40,237 nt of DNA, taken from Betaproteobacteria bacterium (GTDB lineage Bacteria; Pseudomonadota; Gammaproteobacteria; Burkholderiales; Burkholderiaceae_A). Under the pieces are notes generated by a model. That model had not been told where the DNA came from, ran no database searches, and saw only the letters and a program-made list of their open reading frames with translations. Both the position numbers and the translations under genes were made by a program. Position 1 is the first letter of the stretch; each line of letters opens with the position of its first letter. Shown here piece by piece: positions 3,520 to 18,114 of this stretch. The stretch spans positions 1 to 40,237 of the forward strand of contig JAGWXV010000004.1 in NCBI GenBank assembly GCA_018969705.1, written 5' to 3'.

Positions 3520-4110
3520 TTATGTAATACCGGAATCATCCAGGAAATTTTTCAAAAGCGCATGGCCGGATTCACTGAGGATGGACTCCGGATGAAACTG
3601 CACGCCGTGAACGGGCAGGTAGCGGTGCTGCAAGCCCATGATTTCGCCGTCGGCGGTCCAGGCCGTCACGGTGAGCTCCTCGGGCAGGCCATCTCGGCTG
3701 ACCGCCAGAGAGTGGTATCGAATCACTGTCATTGGCGACGGAAGGCCGTGAAAAACCCCCTGGCCAATATGTTCAATCGCAGAGGTCTTGCCATGCATCA
3801 GGGTCTTGGCCCGCACTACCTGAGCGCCAAACGCCGCGCCGATCGCCTGATGGCCCAGACAAACCCCAAGCAGCGGAATCTCGCCCGCGGCTTTTTGAAT
3901 GAGCTCGACAGAAATTCCAGCCCGATCGGGACTGCACGGCCCCGGGGAAATCACGATCCGGTCAGGCCGCTCACCGGCCGGCCTGCGCAAAATCTGATCT
4001 ACAGAGATTGCATCGTTTCGAACGGTCTCCACTAATGCACCCAGCTCGCCTAAATACTGCACGAGATTGAATGTGAACGAATCGTAATTGTCGATCATGA
4101 GCACCCGCAT
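3520..4110 (-). CDS. trpG: anthranilate synthase component II (glutamine amidotransferase)
   Basis: [57 protein letters not shown]. Start placed at the internal Met ([12 protein letters not shown]); the track ORF starts at 4122. Confidence 0.96.
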
Positions 4111-5261
4111 CAAGATGCCCACTTCGCAGAAGTCTTATGGATCTCCTCTTTTGCTAAACGCATGTAAATTTGTTGATTAATACCCTTGATACAAAATCCT
4201 TGCTCTTTATGACGACACTGAAATCCTTTGCAGTGACCATTTGGAATTTCTGCATAACCATGAAGTCTTTTTGTAGAGCGACATGCGAGCTCACCGGAAT
4301 ACTGAAAAATTCGATTTGGGAAAAATAATTCAGAGTGCGCCAGGCGTGGTTGACTCGACCCCATGATCACTACGGTCCTAACACCCAACGATGCTGCCAA
4401 GTGAGTGACCCCCGTATCTGGGCCAAACACTAACTCAGATCTCGCCAAGATTAACAGCAGCTCAGGCAAAGAGGTTTTATCAATTAAGCTGATCGCATTA
4501 AGTTCGAGCCCGGCCGGAAGTCGGTCTCCCGTTCCGGTAAATACTGGCGTGATTCCCGCTTCTATCAGATTGTTTTTTAATTCCGCGGCAGTATCGAAAT
4601 CAATCCTACGGAACTCACCGCGCCCCGACAAATGGATAACCGCATAGCGTTCGCAATCAAACTTAAGTCTCTGTTTCGCCACTGAAGATAGGTTCCAAAA
4701 ACTCTGTGTTAGCTGCCTGCGTCGGACTGGCGACCTCAACTTTGAAGACGTGTAATCTAGAAAATCAATGACTAAAAAATCCAACATCTCAGCGATCGGC
4801 AGTGCCGATACTTTTTCGAAACAAGGTCCATGAATAAATCTAGGTGAGTCATGATCACGAAAAGCCCATATTTTTCTAGCGCCGGATGCGCGCACAATCT
4901 GAAAAAGGCGCTTCTCAAAAAAACAAATTGCTAAACTCACTTTGAAAGCACGAATAGAACGAAGCGTTTGTGTATTTTTATAAAATGAAATTACATGATC
5001 GATTCCAATTATAAGTTTTGCAAGAGCTTCGAGCTCCGGCCGCACAAGCAGGATGATTCTTTGGTTGGGCATCGACTGCTTTAGTCTTGCCAGGGCTGGA
5101 AGTGCCATACAAAGGTCACCCAGGTATAAGGGTGCTGCCACAAGAACCGCCGGCTCGCCTGGGAGGTTTTCAGGATTAAATGATCGCCGTGGCATCTTTG
5201 AATACCAAACAATCAGTAGCTTGAACTGAAGCTTTTGTATCAGGGAAAAAATTGTCGACAA
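4110..5261 (-). CDS. glycosyltransferase family 9 (heptosyltransferase-like) protein
   Basis: 383 aa ORF; N-terminal [26 protein letters not shown] and C-terminal [27 protein letters not shown] resemble GT9 nucleotide-sugar site motifs. The ORF-track start is a TTG; an ATG at 5195 is an alternative start. Confidence 0.82.
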
Positions 5262-10906: not shown

Positions 10907-10982
<76 letters not shown>

Positions 10983-11028: not shown

Positions 11029-11229
11029 TCACATAGTTAACACTTTTGGCCCAAAGGGGTTCTCGAGTGGTTCAACTTTACAGCTGTCTAAATCGAAGTA
11101 TCCCAAATCGTAATCCATAAAACTGGCCAGCCAGACACGGTCCTCGACCTGGCGCACACCCACATTTTGACCGGCAAAGACGGTGCCAAGGTGAATTAGC
11201 GTTGGAAGCTTCAATTGTCTATTCGGCAT
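11029..11229 (-). pseudogene. C-terminal remnant of IS481-type (rve/integrase core) transposase
   Basis: 66-aa ORF HLGTVFAGQNVGVRQVEDRVWLASFMDYDLGYFDLDSCKVEPLENPFGPKV matches the typical C-terminal tail of these transposases. No catalytic DDE domain is present upstream. Confidence 0.8.
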
Positions 11230-11352
11230 AGCACCCCAGTGTCTTAATTTAGGGGGAGACTATAGGGGCATCTCGGGTCATTACGTCGCAAGAAGGTTAT
11301 AGGGGCAAGACACCTCAACAAATGAGTCGACTATCACGGCATCGACTCTACT

Positions 11353-11358
11353 TATAAT
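11353..11358 (+). promoter_or_regulatory. candidate -10 element (TATAAT) of first FkbM gene
   Basis: Perfect TATAAT about 26 nt upstream of the ATG at 11384, which is preceded by SD-like GAGGAAGGA. Confidence 0.5.
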
Positions 11359-11383
11359 GCTTACTAATAACCGAGGAAGGACT

Positions 11384-12106
11384 ATGCGACGTCTACTAAA
11401 TAAACTGTTTGGTTCTGAGCTCGGAGAACTTATCAGAAAAGAGTGGTCTTACCGGCAGCTAAAGAAGAGTGGTAGGTTCGCTCGATTTGATATCGATAAA
11501 ATCCTAGAGGAACTACTGCCGCACAACAACGGGTTCTATGTAGAGCTTGGAGCAAACGACGGTGCGCTGGCATCAAACTCATATTATTTTGAACTAAAAA
11601 AGAATTGGCGGGGAGTGCTCATCGAACCAGCGCCAAACTTATTTCTTAGCTGCCTTAAACGTCGCAGGGAGAAAAATCATGTTTTTTGCGCCGCTTGTGT
11701 ACCGTATGGGCACTCAAAAGAACTCGTCGAAATGCGTTATGCCGACTCCATGACAATATCGTCCGGGCTAGACCTCGATATTGGAAATCATGATGCATTT
11801 TTAGATCGTGGAAAAAAATTTCTTCGAGATGGGGAAGAATCTTTTAAATTTGGCGCTCCATCAGCAACGCTGAATGAACTTCTACTCGCCGCAAATGCAC
11901 CCAGCGAGATAGATTTTCTCTCACTTGATGTTGAGGGGGCTGAACTTAACGTTTTGCAAGGAATTGATTTTTCAATCTACAGATTTAGATATATCGTAGT
12001 CGAGAGCCGGAGTATCGACCGCTTGCTTTTGTACTTGGAACCAAAAAACTATTTTTTAGTGAGAAAAATATCGCATCACGACTATCTTCTAGCGTTTAGA
12101 TTTTAA
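11384..12106 (+). CDS. FkbM-family SAM-dependent methyltransferase
   Basis: GFYVELGANDGALASNSYYFELKKNWRGVLIEPAPNLF and EIDFLSLDVEGAELNVLQGIDFSIYRFRYIVVESR. Start chosen at MRRLLNKLFG; the track ORF begins at 11357 (inside the -10 element). Confidence 0.88.
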   Translation: MRRLLNKLFGSELGELIRKEWSYRQLKKSGRFARFDIDKILEELLPHNNGFYVELGANDGALASNSYYFELKKNWRGVLIEPAPNLFLSCLKRRREKNHVFCAACVPYGHSKELVEMRYADSMTISSGLDLDIGNHDAFLDRGKKFLRDGEESFKFGAPSATLNELLLAANAPSEIDFLSLDVEGAELNVLQGIDFSIYRFRYIVVESRSIDRLLLYLEPKNYFLVRKISHHDYLLAFRF

Positions 12107-12331
12107 TGGCAGACTCTAAACTCTAAATAGTCGCGTTCAGATCACAGTTTTGCCATACAAAACTTATTTAAATTTAGAAAAATATTATTAAGCAGGGAAA
12201 AATTGAGTCCTCTATCGGAATTTCGGGGGCTGACCTAACCACAACTTACCTTGAGAGTTATAGGTAAATGCCTGCTGGTCTAGATATGGTTCACTAGATT
12301 GCATAGTAGTTTAACTGCCGAAGCACAAACA

Positions 12332-13072
12332 TCATTCCATTTCTTTTTTCCATTCGCTTCGGCCATTCACTACACGTTTTGTAAGTCGCTTACCGTCTCT
12401 CCACTCACGACCTAGGTCACAAATTAACTCTGCTTCCTTCGTTCCGAGGATAAATTTACTTCGATATCGGCTCACATACTCAAACAATGTTGGGTTCCAC
12501 GGCGGCTTAGCTTGCTTCTCTGGATCGTAATTTAAATCCATTTTCTTAGCCCATTCGCGCAAGAAGTCTCCATCAAAAAATCCTGGCGAAGTGCCGTGTC
12601 GGTTGTAGGGTTTTTTTGAAATAGTGATTCCTAAAACTTTTTTCCGAATCCAATCAATATCAAATTGCTGATCAAGCTCTAGTACTCTGCTTTTTTCCTT
12701 GAAATAGAACTTCACAGCTTTCGTTTTATCATCGAGTGCGCTTATAAATCGTTCTGGAGAGCACTCTTCCAACAGTATCCAGTCGTCCTCTAAGTGCAGT
12801 ACGACCCGTTCAGTTGTCCCTTCCCACACACTTTTAACTGCGACTGTTAAGTTAGGGACTCTGGGTGTAAATATCTCGACATTTGGAAAATAGCTGCGAA
12901 TTAGATTGATACACTCTCCTCTACTACGCTCGTCACCGCCAAAGAGATCTACGTTGGCGATACACTTTTTAACCTCTAAATTTTTTATAAGTTGAGAGTG
13001 AAAAGAAAGGAGCGTACTTCGAAGCAGCTCAGGGCGGGAGCCAGAAATTAGACAGACATCAACAAGCGGCAT
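12332..13072 (-). CDS. GT2-like glycosyltransferase (GT-A fold)
   Basis: CLISGSRPELLRSTLLSFHSQ N-terminus, VVLHLEDDWILLEE (ExD/DxD-like), C-terminal DLGREWRDGKRLTK. Confidence 0.6.
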   Translation of the reverse strand: MPLVDVCLISGSRPELLRSTLLSFHSQLIKNLEVKKCIANVDLFGGDERSRGECINLIRSYFPNVEIFTPRVPNLTVAVKSVWEGTTERVVLHLEDDWILLEECSPERFISALDDKTKAVKFYFKEKSRVLELDQQFDIDWIRKKVLGITISKKPYNRHGTSPGFFDGDFLREWAKKMDLNYDPEKQAKPPWNPTLFEYVSRYRSKFILGTKEAELICDLGREWRDGKRLTKRVVNGRSEWKKEME

Positions 13073-13136
13073 AATTTTTCGAATTAAATTTTTAATAACG
13101 CCTGGTCCACAGCTTTCTACTCATCCAATAATCTGC

Positions 13137-13805
13137 TTACGGCTGCTTAACTCCAAGCATGACGGTTATTCGATAAGACTTAAATAGCCATAATATTCTG
13201 AGGCTCCGCCTCCAAGAGCCCCTACTCTGCAGCGGCCAAAATGGCCTTATAAGCTTTCGAAGTTGCTTTAGTGGCGACATACTAAGGAACTCTTGTTTAT
13301 ACGACCCTGCGCTCACGATTGTCTGTTCAATCCACTTGAGAGGTATGGTTTTAGCCAATTCCGGTGGGCTCGGTCGGAACATCGTATCGATAGGATCGGG
13401 ATGGTACGGATAATCAAAGGGGGCTGTTATCAGCAGTGCATCCTCTGCACGCATCGAAGAGCAAAGCCTTCTAAGAATCTGATCTCGTGAAGATTCCGGC
13501 AAATGCTCCACAACATTAGCGAGAATTAGTAGCCTCGGCGCAGGGAGTTTAAAAATAAATTCAAACGCATCAGCAGACTCGAGATCACAAACGACGTCAA
13601 CTCCAGCATGCTTTGATTGATCGACGTTTATCACGCATAATCCCGCATTTCTCAGTCGATCAAAGATTTGCTCATCGATCCATGGTTTTTTTTTGCGTAA
13701 ACTTTCAATATCTCCACATCCAAGGTTAATGCAAACCCTGAAGTCGTGAATGTCAAGTCGACCAAAAATAAACTTTGCAGCAACCTCTGACTCCTGTTGT
13801 CTCAT
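13137..13805 (-). CDS. class I SAM-dependent methyltransferase
   Basis: VCINLGCGDIE motif I, LLILANVVEHLPESSRDQILRRL, LLITAPFDYPYHPDPID. Confidence 0.72.
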   Translation of the reverse strand: MRQQESEVAAKFIFGRLDIHDFRVCINLGCGDIESLRKKKPWIDEQIFDRLRNAGLCVINVDQSKHAGVDVVCDLESADAFEFIFKLPAPRLLILANVVEHLPESSRDQILRRLCSSMRAEDALLITAPFDYPYHPDPIDTMFRPSPPELAKTIPLKWIEQTIVSAGSYKQEFLSMSPLKQLRKLIRPFWPLQSRGSWRRSLRILWLFKSYRITVMLGVKQP

Positions 13806-13886
13806 TTTTCCTTTTCTTCTAGCAAGGCGTACGCGGATTAAGCAGTCATTGGTAGCGATTCTTCGGTAGGCAAAAATCAGTATGCG

Positions 13887-14810
13887 CTACTGAAAATTCT
13901 TATAAAGTGATTTTAGAGCCTTAATTCTACGGTCATTGTTACTTAAGGTATCTATTATTGATTCTTTGCTCATACGGTCAGTCTTTCGTAAAGAAACAAA
14001 AAACTCACAGCCCTCTGTTGGGAATTCTAACTCGATCTTCAGTCCAATAAGCTCGAGAAAGTAAAGATCACTCACTATCAATCTAAAAGACTCCGGTATA
14101 AACCGCCAACAATGCACATCAAAGTATTCGCCGCTGGAAGAATACCGATCAACACAAGTTCGCGCATCCTCTATACCGTGAACCAAACCGTCCGGAATAA
14201 ATGTATCTGAGCCCCACGCAATCGAGTCTCCAACTTTCGCAGCGTTAGCAAAGTGATCGAAAATTTGACCAATGGTTGAAGATTTTCTTTCTGAATAGAA
14301 AGCATCGAGCAATGCGCCTGTTTGGCTAATTGGTGAAAAGTAATCAAAGCATCGACGTTTGTCAGGAATTACGAGGGAAAGCACACCCCCTGGTTTTAGT
14401 ATTTTTTCACATTGCTGGAGAAATAGAATGGGGTCTGGCATGTGCTCAATTGCGTGGCTACAGATAATCCAGTCGTAGTAGTTTTGAACTCCGATCAGTT
14501 CAGAATAGGGCTCTCCTCTCGAAACGAAGTCAACTAATTCAATGTTTTCTAAATTTACATTATGAAATTTGTATTTCTCCCTCAACTCCTCAGTACTGGC
14601 ATGATCGAGAATGTGAACGTTATAACCTTCACGTTTCGGTGCGATAGGATTATGGCTCGGTCCGATCTCCAAGCCAATTCCTTCGGAATCTAGTAAAGAG
14701 AATACTTTTTCTTTACGATTCTTTTCTTTTTTTGAAACACTAGGCTGCCTAAAAACTGTCAATTTGTGCAGGGCAGATTTGAGAAAATTTTTTACGTTAT
14801 AGTGAGTCAT
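13887..14810 (-). CDS. class I SAM-dependent methyltransferase
   Basis: GIGLEIGPSHNPIAPKREGYNVHILDHAS, DWIICSHAIEHMPDPILFLQQCEKILKPGGVLSLVIPDKR. Confidence 0.85.
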   Translation of the reverse strand: MTHYNVKNFLKSALHKLTVFRQPSVSKKEKNRKEKVFSLLDSEGIGLEIGPSHNPIAPKREGYNVHILDHASTEELREKYKFHNVNLENIELVDFVSRGEPYSELIGVQNYYDWIICSHAIEHMPDPILFLQQCEKILKPGGVLSLVIPDKRRCFDYFSPISQTGALLDAFYSERKSSTIGQIFDHFANAAKVGDSIAWGSDTFIPDGLVHGIEDARTCVDRYSSSGEYFDVHCWRFIPESFRLIVSDLYFLELIGLKIELEFPTEGCEFFVSLRKTDRMSKESIIDTLSNNDRRIKALKSLYKNFQ

Positions 14811-14954
14811 GTAGTGTTCGATCTGTATCGCGTATTAAATTTATTTAATGATCAAGACAAAAATCTTCTAAAACCAAAACGGCTAGCCTTTATCTGTATT
14901 TTGAACTATCTTCCAGTGACTTAGTGTAAGAGTCGATTCGGCCATAAAATATCA

Positions 14955-15710
14955 ATGAATAAAAATCTTGACGACGAGGTGTTTCTCGCGTTGTGTAATT
15001 GGATCAAACCGGGTGATACAGTTCTCGATGTGGGCGCAAATGTGGGGAGTTTTACCAATCACATGGCAAAACTCGTTGGCCCCGGAGGGCATGTTCATGC
15101 ATTCGAACCAGAGCCTAATAACTTTAGCGCACTTGAGAAAGCTGTCAGCAATCGAAAACTCCACAATGTAAGTTTGCACCGGTCTGCCCTGGGTGCGATG
15201 CCGGGTTTTGCAAAACTATATCTCAGTCAATTTAATGTGGGAATGCACCGCTTATATAAATCCGAAGTCTGTGGAGAGGAGTCGATTCTTACGGAAGTTC
15301 AAACAATTGATAATTTGTTTAAACCAGATGAAATATCTTTGATTAAAATTGATATTGAAGGATTTGAACCGTACGCATTGTTCGGGGCGGAGTCGCTTAT
15401 TAAGCAATCGAAAATCACTGTAGTTGCTGAGCATTGCCCACCTTCAATTTTAGAAGCTGGAGCATCTATAACTAAATATCTTTCATGGCTTAGATACCAT
15501 CAATTTCGTGTTTTTAACTGCACCAGCGAGGAAGTTGATTGGGAGTCACTTATCTCAGATGGGCAACGATGGGATTCGTTCGGGTGCGAAAGACTAAAGC
15601 GACGCTGCAAAGAAAAGACAAATCCTCAAATTGCTGAAGAGGTTCAAGCCATTGGTTATGAATTGAGCTGTAAACGCCCATATATCGAAAACCTTGTTTT
15701 CATCCGATAG
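14955..15710 (+). CDS. FkbM-family SAM-dependent methyltransferase
   Basis: GDTVLDVGANVGSFTNHMAKLVGPGGHVHAFEPEPNNF, ISLIKIDIEGFEPYALFGAESLI. Confidence 0.9.
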   Translation: MNKNLDDEVFLALCNWIKPGDTVLDVGANVGSFTNHMAKLVGPGGHVHAFEPEPNNFSALEKAVSNRKLHNVSLHRSALGAMPGFAKLYLSQFNVGMHRLYKSEVCGEESILTEVQTIDNLFKPDEISLIKIDIEGFEPYALFGAESLIKQSKITVVAEHCPPSILEAGASITKYLSWLRYHQFRVFNCTSEEVDWESLISDGQRWDSFGCERLKRRCKEKTNPQIAEEVQAIGYELSCKRPYIENLVFIR

Positions 15711-15875
15711 AATCTTCATCAGATTGAGACTTGTCAACCATTGGTTATATGTTTTTTTAAGGTGGTTGCAGTCTAGTTTCCGGCAGAATGCGGCGGCTCT
15801 ATAAATTTCCTTTCCGAAGATAAACTGATTTGGCCATTTTCCAATAGCCTCATCACCAATAAATGGAGAATCAAA

Positions 15876-16733
15876 ATGCAAACTCTTCCTTTGGTTGCCC
15901 TTTTGGTTTCAGGAGGCTTAACAGTCAGCTGCGCAGTGCAGAACTATGGAGATAGCCTCTATCACTTGCGGAGAGCTACTGCCGGAAAAGACGTGATGTG
16001 GATTCCAACAAAGGTGGAAACGATCCATCAAATGCTGGCGATGGCCGAGATTACGCCGCACGACTATCTGATTGATCTCGGCTCGGGGGATGGCGTTATT
16101 CCAATTGAAGCAGCAAAAAAATTTGGTATTCGATCGCTGGGAATTGAGTATAACCGAGATCTTGTCGCGCTGTCACAACGCAATGCAGACCGGGCGAATG
16201 TAAAACATTTGGTGAATTTTCGACAGGGAGATATTTTTGCCGAAAATTTTTCTGAAGCAACAGTCTTAACACTTTATCTCGGCGAATCACTGAATAATCG
16301 ACTGAAGCCAGCCCTTCTCAACATGAAGCCTGGTACGCGCATCATATCGAATACATTCCGTATTGATGCATGGACTCCCGATCGAGAGTTAAAACTAAAT
16401 TCTGGGGAGAGCGCTTTTTTATGGATTGTTCCCGCTCGTTTCGAAGGCGAATGGGAACTCCAAGGTCTGCCGGGGAGCTCTAAAGCGAGTATGAAAATTC
16501 GTCAAAAAACGCAATTTTTCGAGGGCACAATCGATACTGGACAGCGGCGGCCTGCCGTAATCGAGGATGGCAGACTCTCTGGTACCCAGTTTACGTTTAG
16601 TTATCTTGACCATAACAATCGATCCCGGACACTAACAGGCACAATCAACGGACCTGAGTCAAACGAATTTACAGCTCAGTCGTTAGATCAGGGTGGCCAA
16701 AAAATTTTCGGACAATTGCGCTCTCGACGTTAG
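15876..16733 (+). CDS. predicted exported class I SAM-dependent methyltransferase
   Basis: Hydrophobic N-terminus MQTLPLVALLVSGGLTVSC, then DYLIDLGSGDGVIPIEAAKKFGIRSLGIEYNRDLV, LKPGTRIISNTF-like motif; beta-rich C-terminal extension. SD GGAGAA upstream. Confidence 0.82.
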   Translation: MQTLPLVALLVSGGLTVSCAVQNYGDSLYHLRRATAGKDVMWIPTKVETIHQMLAMAEITPHDYLIDLGSGDGVIPIEAAKKFGIRSLGIEYNRDLVALSQRNADRANVKHLVNFRQGDIFAENFSEATVLTLYLGESLNNRLKPALLNMKPGTRIISNTFRIDAWTPDRELKLNSGESAFLWIVPARFEGEWELQGLPGSSKASMKIRQKTQFFEGTIDTGQRRPAVIEDGRLSGTQFTFSYLDHNNRSRTLTGTINGPESNEFTAQSLDQGGQKIFGQLRSRR

Positions 16734-16755
16734 CATTATCCAAAATCGTTAGTTG

Positions 16756-17043
16756 CTAAGGCTCAACTCCAAATAAAGTCAAAGCCATTGCTCTGCTACG
16801 CACCGACATGAGCGCGCAATATTCTGGGCTTAACGACCAACGCTCGGCATCCTCTTTGCTTGGAAAGGACAGCTCAACGAAGGCATCGAACTCACCGATG
16901 CCCAGTTCGTTCCAAGGCATCAGCTTTCGACGACCCCTAAACTCGATGCTGCCTCGGTAAAGGGTGACAGTCTGACCCACCTGGCTACGATAGTCCTCAA
17001 ATGCCTCTTGATTCAGAACTTTTATAAGACCAATTACTTTCAT
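16756..17043 (-). CDS. DUF1330-like protein
   Basis: 95 aa; FEDYRSQVGQTVTLYRGSIEFRGR...FDAFVELSFPSKEDAERWSLSPEYCAL resembles DUF1330. Confidence 0.65.
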   Translation of the reverse strand: MKVIGLIKVLNQEAFEDYRSQVGQTVTLYRGSIEFRGRRKLMPWNELGIGEFDAFVELSFPSKEDAERWSLSPEYCALMSVRSRAMALTLFGVEP

Positions 17044-17061: not shown

Positions 17062-18114
17062 TCACTTAGCCCTTCGACTTCTTGCGGCTTGGGCCAAAAG
17101 ATCTAGCAGTGGCCTTGTCTGAGAAAAACTAATACAGGAGTCAGTAATAGAGACTCCGTGCTGAAGCGGCCGGCCCGACACTAAGTCTTGCCGGCCTTCT
17201 TTAAGATGGCTCTCGATCATAACGCCCATAATCCGTGCATCGCCCTGCGCAATCTGCTGGGCGACATCCGTCACAACATCAATCTGACGCTGATGCTGCT
17301 TATCGCTGTTGGCATGCGAAACATCGATCATAAGCTGCGGGCGCAGACCCGACTGCTGTAAAAGGCTGGCCGCAGCGTTTACCGAATCAGCCCCGTAATT
17401 TGGCGTCTTTCCGCCGCGCAAAATAATGTGACAGTCCTGATTGCCGCAGGTCTCAAAAATCGCACTCTGGCCAAACTTCGTCATGCCGATAAAAGCATGA
17501 CTTGCCTGGGCGGCTAGTAGCGCATCTACCGCAACCTTGATACTGCCTTCAGTGCCGTTTTTAAGGCCGACCGGGCAGGAGAGGCCGCTGGCCAGCTGAC
17601 GGTGACTCTGACTTTCTGTGGTGCGGGCGCCGATGGCGCCCCAGCTCACTAAATCGCTAAAAAACTGCGGGCTCAGCAGATCAAGAAACTCGGTGCCTAC
17701 CGGAAGGCCCAAATTCAGAATATCCAGTAAGAGCTGCCGGGCCAACTCAAGCCCTTCGTTGATAGCGTAGGAGCCATCGAGATGCGGGTCATTGATATAA
17801 CCCTTCCAGCCGACGGTTGTTCTGGGTTTTTCGAAATACACACGCATCACGACAATCAGATCATCAGCGAATCGCTTAGCCTCGGTGCGAAGTAGCCCGG
17901 CATATTCCATGGCCTGATCATGGTGATGAATTGAGCAAGGACCGACGATGCAAAGCAATCGATCGTCCTGGCCCTCCAGGACCGCCGTAATGTCCGATCG
18001 GGCCTGAAAAACAACTGCCTGCGCGGTAGCCGACGCCGGCAGCTTTTCCAGCAAAAGCTGGGGAGAAATAAGGGCGCGAATCGCCCCGATTCGAAGATCC
18101 TCTAAATTCTGCAT
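17062..18114 (-). CDS. aroG: 3-deoxy-7-phosphoheptulonate (DAHP) synthase, AroG/F/H type
   Basis: CIVGPCSIHHHDQAMEYAGLL, VVMRVYFEKPRTTVGWKGYINDPHLDGS, GAIGARTTESQSHRQLASGLSCPVGLKNGTEGS, MIDVSHANSDKQ. Confidence 0.96.
   Translation of the reverse strand: MQNLEDLRIGAIRALISPQLLLEKLPASATAQAVVFQARSDITAVLEGQDDRLLCIVGPCSIHHHDQAMEYAGLLRTEAKRFADDLIVVMRVYFEKPRTTVGWKGYINDPHLDGSYAINEGLELARQLLLDILNLGLPVGTEFLDLLSPQFFSDLVSWGAIGARTTESQSHRQLASGLSCPVGLKNGTEGSIKVAVDALLAAQASHAFIGMTKFGQSAIFETCGNQDCHIILRGGKTPNYGADSVNAAASLLQQSGLRPQLMIDVSHANSDKQHQRQIDVVTDVAQQIAQGDARIMGVMIESHLKEGRQDLVSGRPLQHGVSITDSCISFSQTRPLLDLLAQAARSRRAK

Follow-up and report, generated by a model that had tools for sequence, protein, structure and literature searches.

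A five-gene, AT-rich islet that lies between a tRNA-Phe gene and an aroG paralogue in a Burkholderiales genome occupies a hotspot of gene turnover, and it most likely decorates a surface polysaccharide in trans, as a strain-variable composite cassette. The islet (approximately 11237–15875) falls within a 40,237-nucleotide stretch of DNA, hereafter the window, on contig C45 of a 1.45-Mb metagenome-assembled genome of 79% completeness (G000). It encodes two FkbM-family methyltransferases (FkbM1 and FkbM2), a GT-A glycosyltransferase (GT) and two further methyltransferases, A and B, all in intact reading frames (Table 1). We compared it with Burkholderiales relatives, using a genus set of seven genomes (G000–G006) and a family set of 26 genomes, and gauged how rare its genes are within the order from samples of 300 genomes.

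The composition of the islet sets it apart from the rest of its genome. GC content over positions 11234–15875 is 41.7%, against a background of 56.5% (standard deviation 1.2%, minimum 53.6%) in 45 four-kb windows on other sampled contigs of the source genome, placing the islet about 12 standard deviations under the genome mean and bearing out the AT-rich shift that a prior sequence-only reading had described. Open reading frames (ORFs) cover about 88% of positions 11357–15710, and promoter-like and terminator-like sites occur at the frequency expected by chance. FkbM1 and FkbM2 both exceed the curated cut-offs of PF05050 (22.7 bits) and TIGR01444 (37.7 bits), as that reading had anticipated, and its two other class I methyltransferases are likewise supported, by PF13489 for B and by motifs for A. 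Its overall count of five methyltransferases and one glycosyltransferase is corrected to four and one, since the fifth, an exported methyltransferase, belongs to the aroG flank. FkbM genes occur in only 4 of the 26 family genomes and both copies of the source genome sit in the islet, so this density of methyltransferases is unlikely to be due to chance.

Comparison with sister genomes revealed that the tRNA-Phe/aroG site is a turnover hotspot that holds unrelated, AT-rich gene sets, the comparison being between species of one genus, with one genome of the source species. In G006, ubiH–tRNA-Phe and DUF1330–aroG flank a 13-kb insert of unrelated genes, which begins with a nucleotidyltransferase/HEPN-like pair, followed by a dienelactone hydrolase; such a pair also follows tRNA-Phe in G001 (both pairs named from the look of their sequences only). 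In G004, ubiH–tRNA-Phe is followed by two DUF4214 proteins and hydrolases and then by GT and methyltransferase A, up to the contig end, a gene set larger than and different from the source islet, with the aroG side on a separate contig. AT-rich dips recur at the site in both G004 and G006. The same genes in the same order across the family at normal GC, which the sequence-only reading had named as an observation that would count against it, were thus not what the locus showed: G004 and G006 differ, and GC is deviant. GT and methyltransferase A are the sole islet genes in common with G004, where they keep the same order at 62–64% identity. Only these two were seen travelling together, and a single shared history for the whole cassette is not supported. 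Separately, a 167-aa protein without a Pfam or NCBIfam match recurs in the hotspot of G006 and G004 (L061 7861–8364; L063 14449–14952).

At third codon positions, GT and methyltransferase A differ from their G004 counterparts at 60–66% of sites, against 27% at first and second positions, a contrast like that of ubiH and the exported methyltransferase, and this contrast, on which we relied as synonymous divergence is saturated, indicates purifying selection on both genes. Neither of the signs that would have pointed to a non-functional locus, frameshifts or relaxed selection, was seen: all frames are intact and the two comparable genes are constrained like their neighbours. The codon-position divergence of the pair fits long residence in the genus and later exchange equally well.

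GT proved the least expected part of the islet. The sequence-only reading had called it GT2-like; the glycosyltransferase assignment holds, by its fold model, whereas neither the Pfam GT2 model PF00535 nor any other Pfam family matches it. The G004 orthologue and four viral relatives likewise had no Pfam hit, PHROGs yielded no match for GT or the four viral members tested, and a PDB sequence search with the GT profile returned nothing convincing. The AlphaFold model is confident for residues 1–110, the N-terminal half, only; a Foldseek search with it produced 313 PDB matches at E ≤ 0.001, and the matches listed were GT-A enzymes, including TarP (2.8e-7) and SpsA (1.9e-6). On the strength of this predicted structure, the protein is a glycosyltransferase of GT-A fold with HLEDDW as a conserved acidic metal-site motif. 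The family signature across 16 aligned sequences comprises RP, N[IV]D, HLEDDW, PEKQ and GR.W, with few exceptions. GT is rare in the order (4 genomes of the sample, its own included), and relatives are encoded on 58 IMG/VR viral contigs (L277–L334) of up to 494 kb, mostly at 21–29% identity over most of the length. As a family that has no Pfam or PHROG model yet occurs commonly on viral contigs from the environment, it offers a concrete object for characterization.

Two of the methyltransferases have relatives in glycan-related loci. The best sampled relative of FkbM2 (37%) lies inside a cluster encoding Wzm, Wzt, GDP-mannose dehydratase and a glycosyltransferase family 2 protein; within the family, FkbM2 has one weak relative only, in G001, and FkbM1 has none among sampled members. 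FkbM2 is divergently oriented with respect to methyltransferase B, whose best relative in the order sample (46%) comes from another bacterial family. The neighbours of B relatives are an acyltransferase, a further methyltransferase and a glycosyltransferase of 1125 aa in Aminobacter, and a GT-A gene in Bradyrhizobium; in G046, a relative lies near a sugar C-methyltransferase. Methyltransferase A is found in 3 genomes of the order sample, its own included, and shares the motifs NLG[CS]G, NV[VI]EHLP, YPYHxDPID and RPxP with relatives in G259 and G230; a PDB sequence search with its profile gave nothing convincing. The profile searches that the sequence-only reading had proposed for each ORF placed three islet methyltransferases in families and left GT and methyltransferase A without a Pfam or NCBIfam match.

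From these observations we infer a joint role at the cell surface. GT would attach a sugar, as a side or terminal group, to a surface polysaccharide. While this glycan is still on the cytoplasmic side, before its export, the S-adenosylmethionine (SAM)-dependent methyltransferases would add O-methyl groups at its hydroxyls. For the backbone, the cell would rely on a polysaccharide cluster at another place in the genome. Contig C212 of the source genome carries one that could supply the acceptor; it encodes a WcaJ-type phosphotransferase (490 bits against a cut-off of 411), several family 4 glycosyltransferases, a Wzm-like permease and a polymerase- or ligase-like membrane protein (this last identified by appearance only). 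With such groups altered, phage receptors and surface antigens would differ as well, and this would account for the swapping of the locus. The surface-glycan cassette already suggested from sequence thus gains from the contexts of FkbM2 and methyltransferase B relatives and from the C212 cluster, with joint function and target glycan still put forward as a proposal. If correct, surface-modifying enzymes of this uncultured betaproteobacterium with a small genome would be exchanged at a tRNA site and not within the polysaccharide cluster, and strain typing that relied on the main cluster alone would miss them.

Several points weigh against this interpretation. The mixed strands and divergent arrangement of the genes exclude a single operon. 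Transport and sugar-nucleotide genes are missing: Pfam and NCBIfam searches of the islet ORFs returned no sugar-nucleotide, flippase, ABC exporter or polymerase gene of the kind that defines an O-antigen or capsule cluster, in agreement with the earlier remark that the usual O-antigen synthesis genes are lacking. C212 is tied to the islet solely by their shared genome. Relatives of methyltransferase A, moreover, lie outside evident glycan loci: the G259 relative is directly upstream of a DUF4347–RTX–DUF4214 protein, and relatives on Planktothrix plasmids adjoin an integrase and hypothetical proteins.

The abundance of viral GT relatives raises the alternative that the islet is phage-derived cargo, in which genes once borne by a phage for altering the host surface were left at a tRNA integration site. 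Besides the tRNA neighbourhood and the 58 viral contigs, this account draws on the genes around six viral GTs, which among the top 25 families listed were rich in glycosyltransferase, methyltransferase and sugar-epimerase PHROGs, in contrast to control loci chosen by arbitrary DNA words, where head, portal and helicase genes appeared among the top 25; phrog_8156 and phrog_22502 also match the islet FkbMs and methyltransferase B. Yet neither an integrase nor a structural phage gene was found in the islet, nor any att repeat; most viral GTs are just 21–29% identical to its own, and relatives of GT or FkbM1 were absent from isolate phages (for GT, also from the plasmids in the collections). A recurring viral cassette of islet families was rejected, as only 1 of the 58 viral GT loci had an FkbM-like gene nearby and only 4 of 58 a methyltransferase-B-like gene (0 of 63 controls each). 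We accordingly regard phage cargo as improbable. A broader idea, that GT belongs to an undescribed family common to phages and hosts, with such islets acting as a host-side store for exchanged surface-masking sugar and methyl groups, is similarly speculative.

A slightly less favoured alternative is that GT and methyltransferase A modify a secreted surface protein of DUF4214/RTX type, with the other methyltransferases as unrelated passengers. In G004, two DUF4214 proteins are encoded in the islet that holds both genes; the G259 gene described above is the best relative of methyltransferase A; and within the genus DUF4214 is confined to G000, G004 and G006; the source islet, however, contains no DUF4214 gene, and among 78 ORFs around DUF4214 genes of the family no glycosyltransferase or methyltransferase featured in the recurrent families. 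The partnership hinted at by G004 and G259 was rejected on this family-wide tally. As for its distribution, DUF4214 (PF13946) reaches 13 copies per genome in one genus of the family and 15 in G004, and is absent from G001, G002, G003 and G005. Least plausible is a functionless remnant of a larger glycan cluster undergoing loss, an account that would suit the missing sugar-nucleotide, flippase and polymerase genes and the transposase scar at one edge but is opposed by five intact, densely packed frames and by the purifying selection seen on GT and methyltransferase A, which could be compared. Decoration of a surface polysaccharide in trans thus remains our preferred reading.

The left border of the islet bears a scar. 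The transposase remnant noted previously is present, as a chimera: a 56-bp match (11181–11236) at the scar ORF is 77% DNA-identical to the dienelactone-hydrolase gene that holds this position in G006, and the rest is a transposase C-terminus (72–76% to plasmid transposases). Judged as a tRNA-borne genomic island, the locus shows tRNA neighbourhood, deviant composition and patchy presence; no integrase was found among the islet ORFs, and the tRNA-Phe 3′ end is single-copy in the window, allowing 3 mismatches. The proposed limits, tRNA-Phe and core genes on the aroG side, stand for the former, whereas aroG falls short of strict core status: G000, G004 and G006 have this paralogue, G005 has it at a contig end, and searches of G001–G003 did not find it.

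The exported methyltransferase had been counted within the islet. We assign it to the flank despite its own GC of 47%, because its G004 orthologue (64–67% identical) lies directly beside DUF1330–aroG at 58.4% GC; a paralogue (42%) lies elsewhere in the source genome (contig C105, L217 10030–10878). Its sequence relatives include an RNA methyltransferase of known structure (5bxy) and archaeal protein-lysine methyltransferases, and an assignment to the archaeal protein-lysine methyltransferase family NF041081 was rejected at 85.5 bits, under the 200-bit curated cut-off. The predicted model is unusable (mean predicted local distance difference test score 46). Both the gene and its C105 paralogue encode an intact SAM motif, an apparent export signal and a C-terminal extension. 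Relatives occur in each of the 7 genus genomes, and the signal is lipobox-like in both this protein and its G004 orthologue; for a SAM-dependent enzyme, a location outside the cytoplasm would be unusual. Elsewhere in the window, 6 kb from the islet, a second glycan-type insertion consists of a glycosyltransferase family 9 gene (heptosyltransferase-like, PF01075 1.9e-11; 4110–5261, minus strand; GC 44.8%) between trpE and trpG. These two genes are adjacent in G001, G003 and G004, and no relative of the inserted gene was found at those loci.

Table 1. Features of the islet and its flanks, with positions in the window.
Feature	Position	Strand	Basis
tRNA-Phe (GAA), left border	10907–10982	+	ARAGORN; adjoins ubiH also in G001, G003, G004 and G006
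Scar ORF, dienelactone-hydrolase fragment and transposase C-terminus	11029–11229	-	phrog_8463 transposase, 2.1e-5
FkbM1, FkbM-family methyltransferase, 249 aa	11357–12106	+	PF05050 1.9e-19, 70.9 bits; TIGR01444 54.5 bits
GT-A glycosyltransferase (predicted fold), 246 aa, family without Pfam or PHROG model	12332–13072	-	AlphaFold model and Foldseek
Methyltransferase A, 222 aa, paired with GT	13137–13805	-	Class I motifs; same-order pair in G004
Methyltransferase B, 307 aa	13887–14810	-	PF13489 (Methyltransf_23-type) 8.1e-9; relatives adjoin glycosyltransferases
FkbM2, FkbM-family methyltransferase, 251 aa	14955–15710	+	PF05050 1.8e-18, 67.7 bits; TIGR01444 94.7 bits
Exported, lipoprotein-like class I methyltransferase, aroG flank	15876–16733	+	Orthologue beside DUF1330–aroG in G004
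DUF1330 protein, right flank	16756–17043	-	PF07045 6.3e-9; adjoins aroG in G004 and G006
aroG paralogue (DAHP synthase), right flank	17062–18114	-	TIGR00034 496.8 bits; patchy in genus

The best PDB fold match of GT is TarP, the wall teichoic acid glycosyltransferase of S. aureus (6h4f), yet the two are 15% identical with a TM-score of 0.48, and with the C-terminal half uncertain only the GT-A fold is confidently common. The proposed methylation would resemble WbdD-type terminal methylation of O-antigen (PMC3482155), in which a SAM-dependent enzyme acts on the O-polysaccharide before export; WbdD is described there as the kinase-methyltransferase of an ABC-type O-antigen system, and no kinase domain was found in the islet.

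Swappable islets that alter the cell surface are already known as a kind. Flagellin glycosylation and methylation islands of Enterobacteriaceae, among which strains can differ by one FkbM gene (PMC4875605), are likewise variable at a fixed locus and combine glycosyltransferases with FkbM and other SAM-dependent methyltransferases; they occupy the flagellin locus and include sugar-biosynthesis genes, whereas the present islet occupies the tRNA-Phe/aroG site with no such genes and no flagellin gene seen nearby. Hypervariable region 2 (HVR2) of SAR11 (PMC2217521) is similarly variable and anchored to an RNA gene; its genome is small, and the region includes genes for glycosyltransferases and methyltransferases. 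It spans 48 kb, however, mainly devoted to lipopolysaccharide synthesis and including an O-antigen polymerase, in contrast to 4.6 kb of modification genes only. The flagellin islands and HVR2 are the nearest published kinds, from which the islet differs by its site and by carrying modification genes only.

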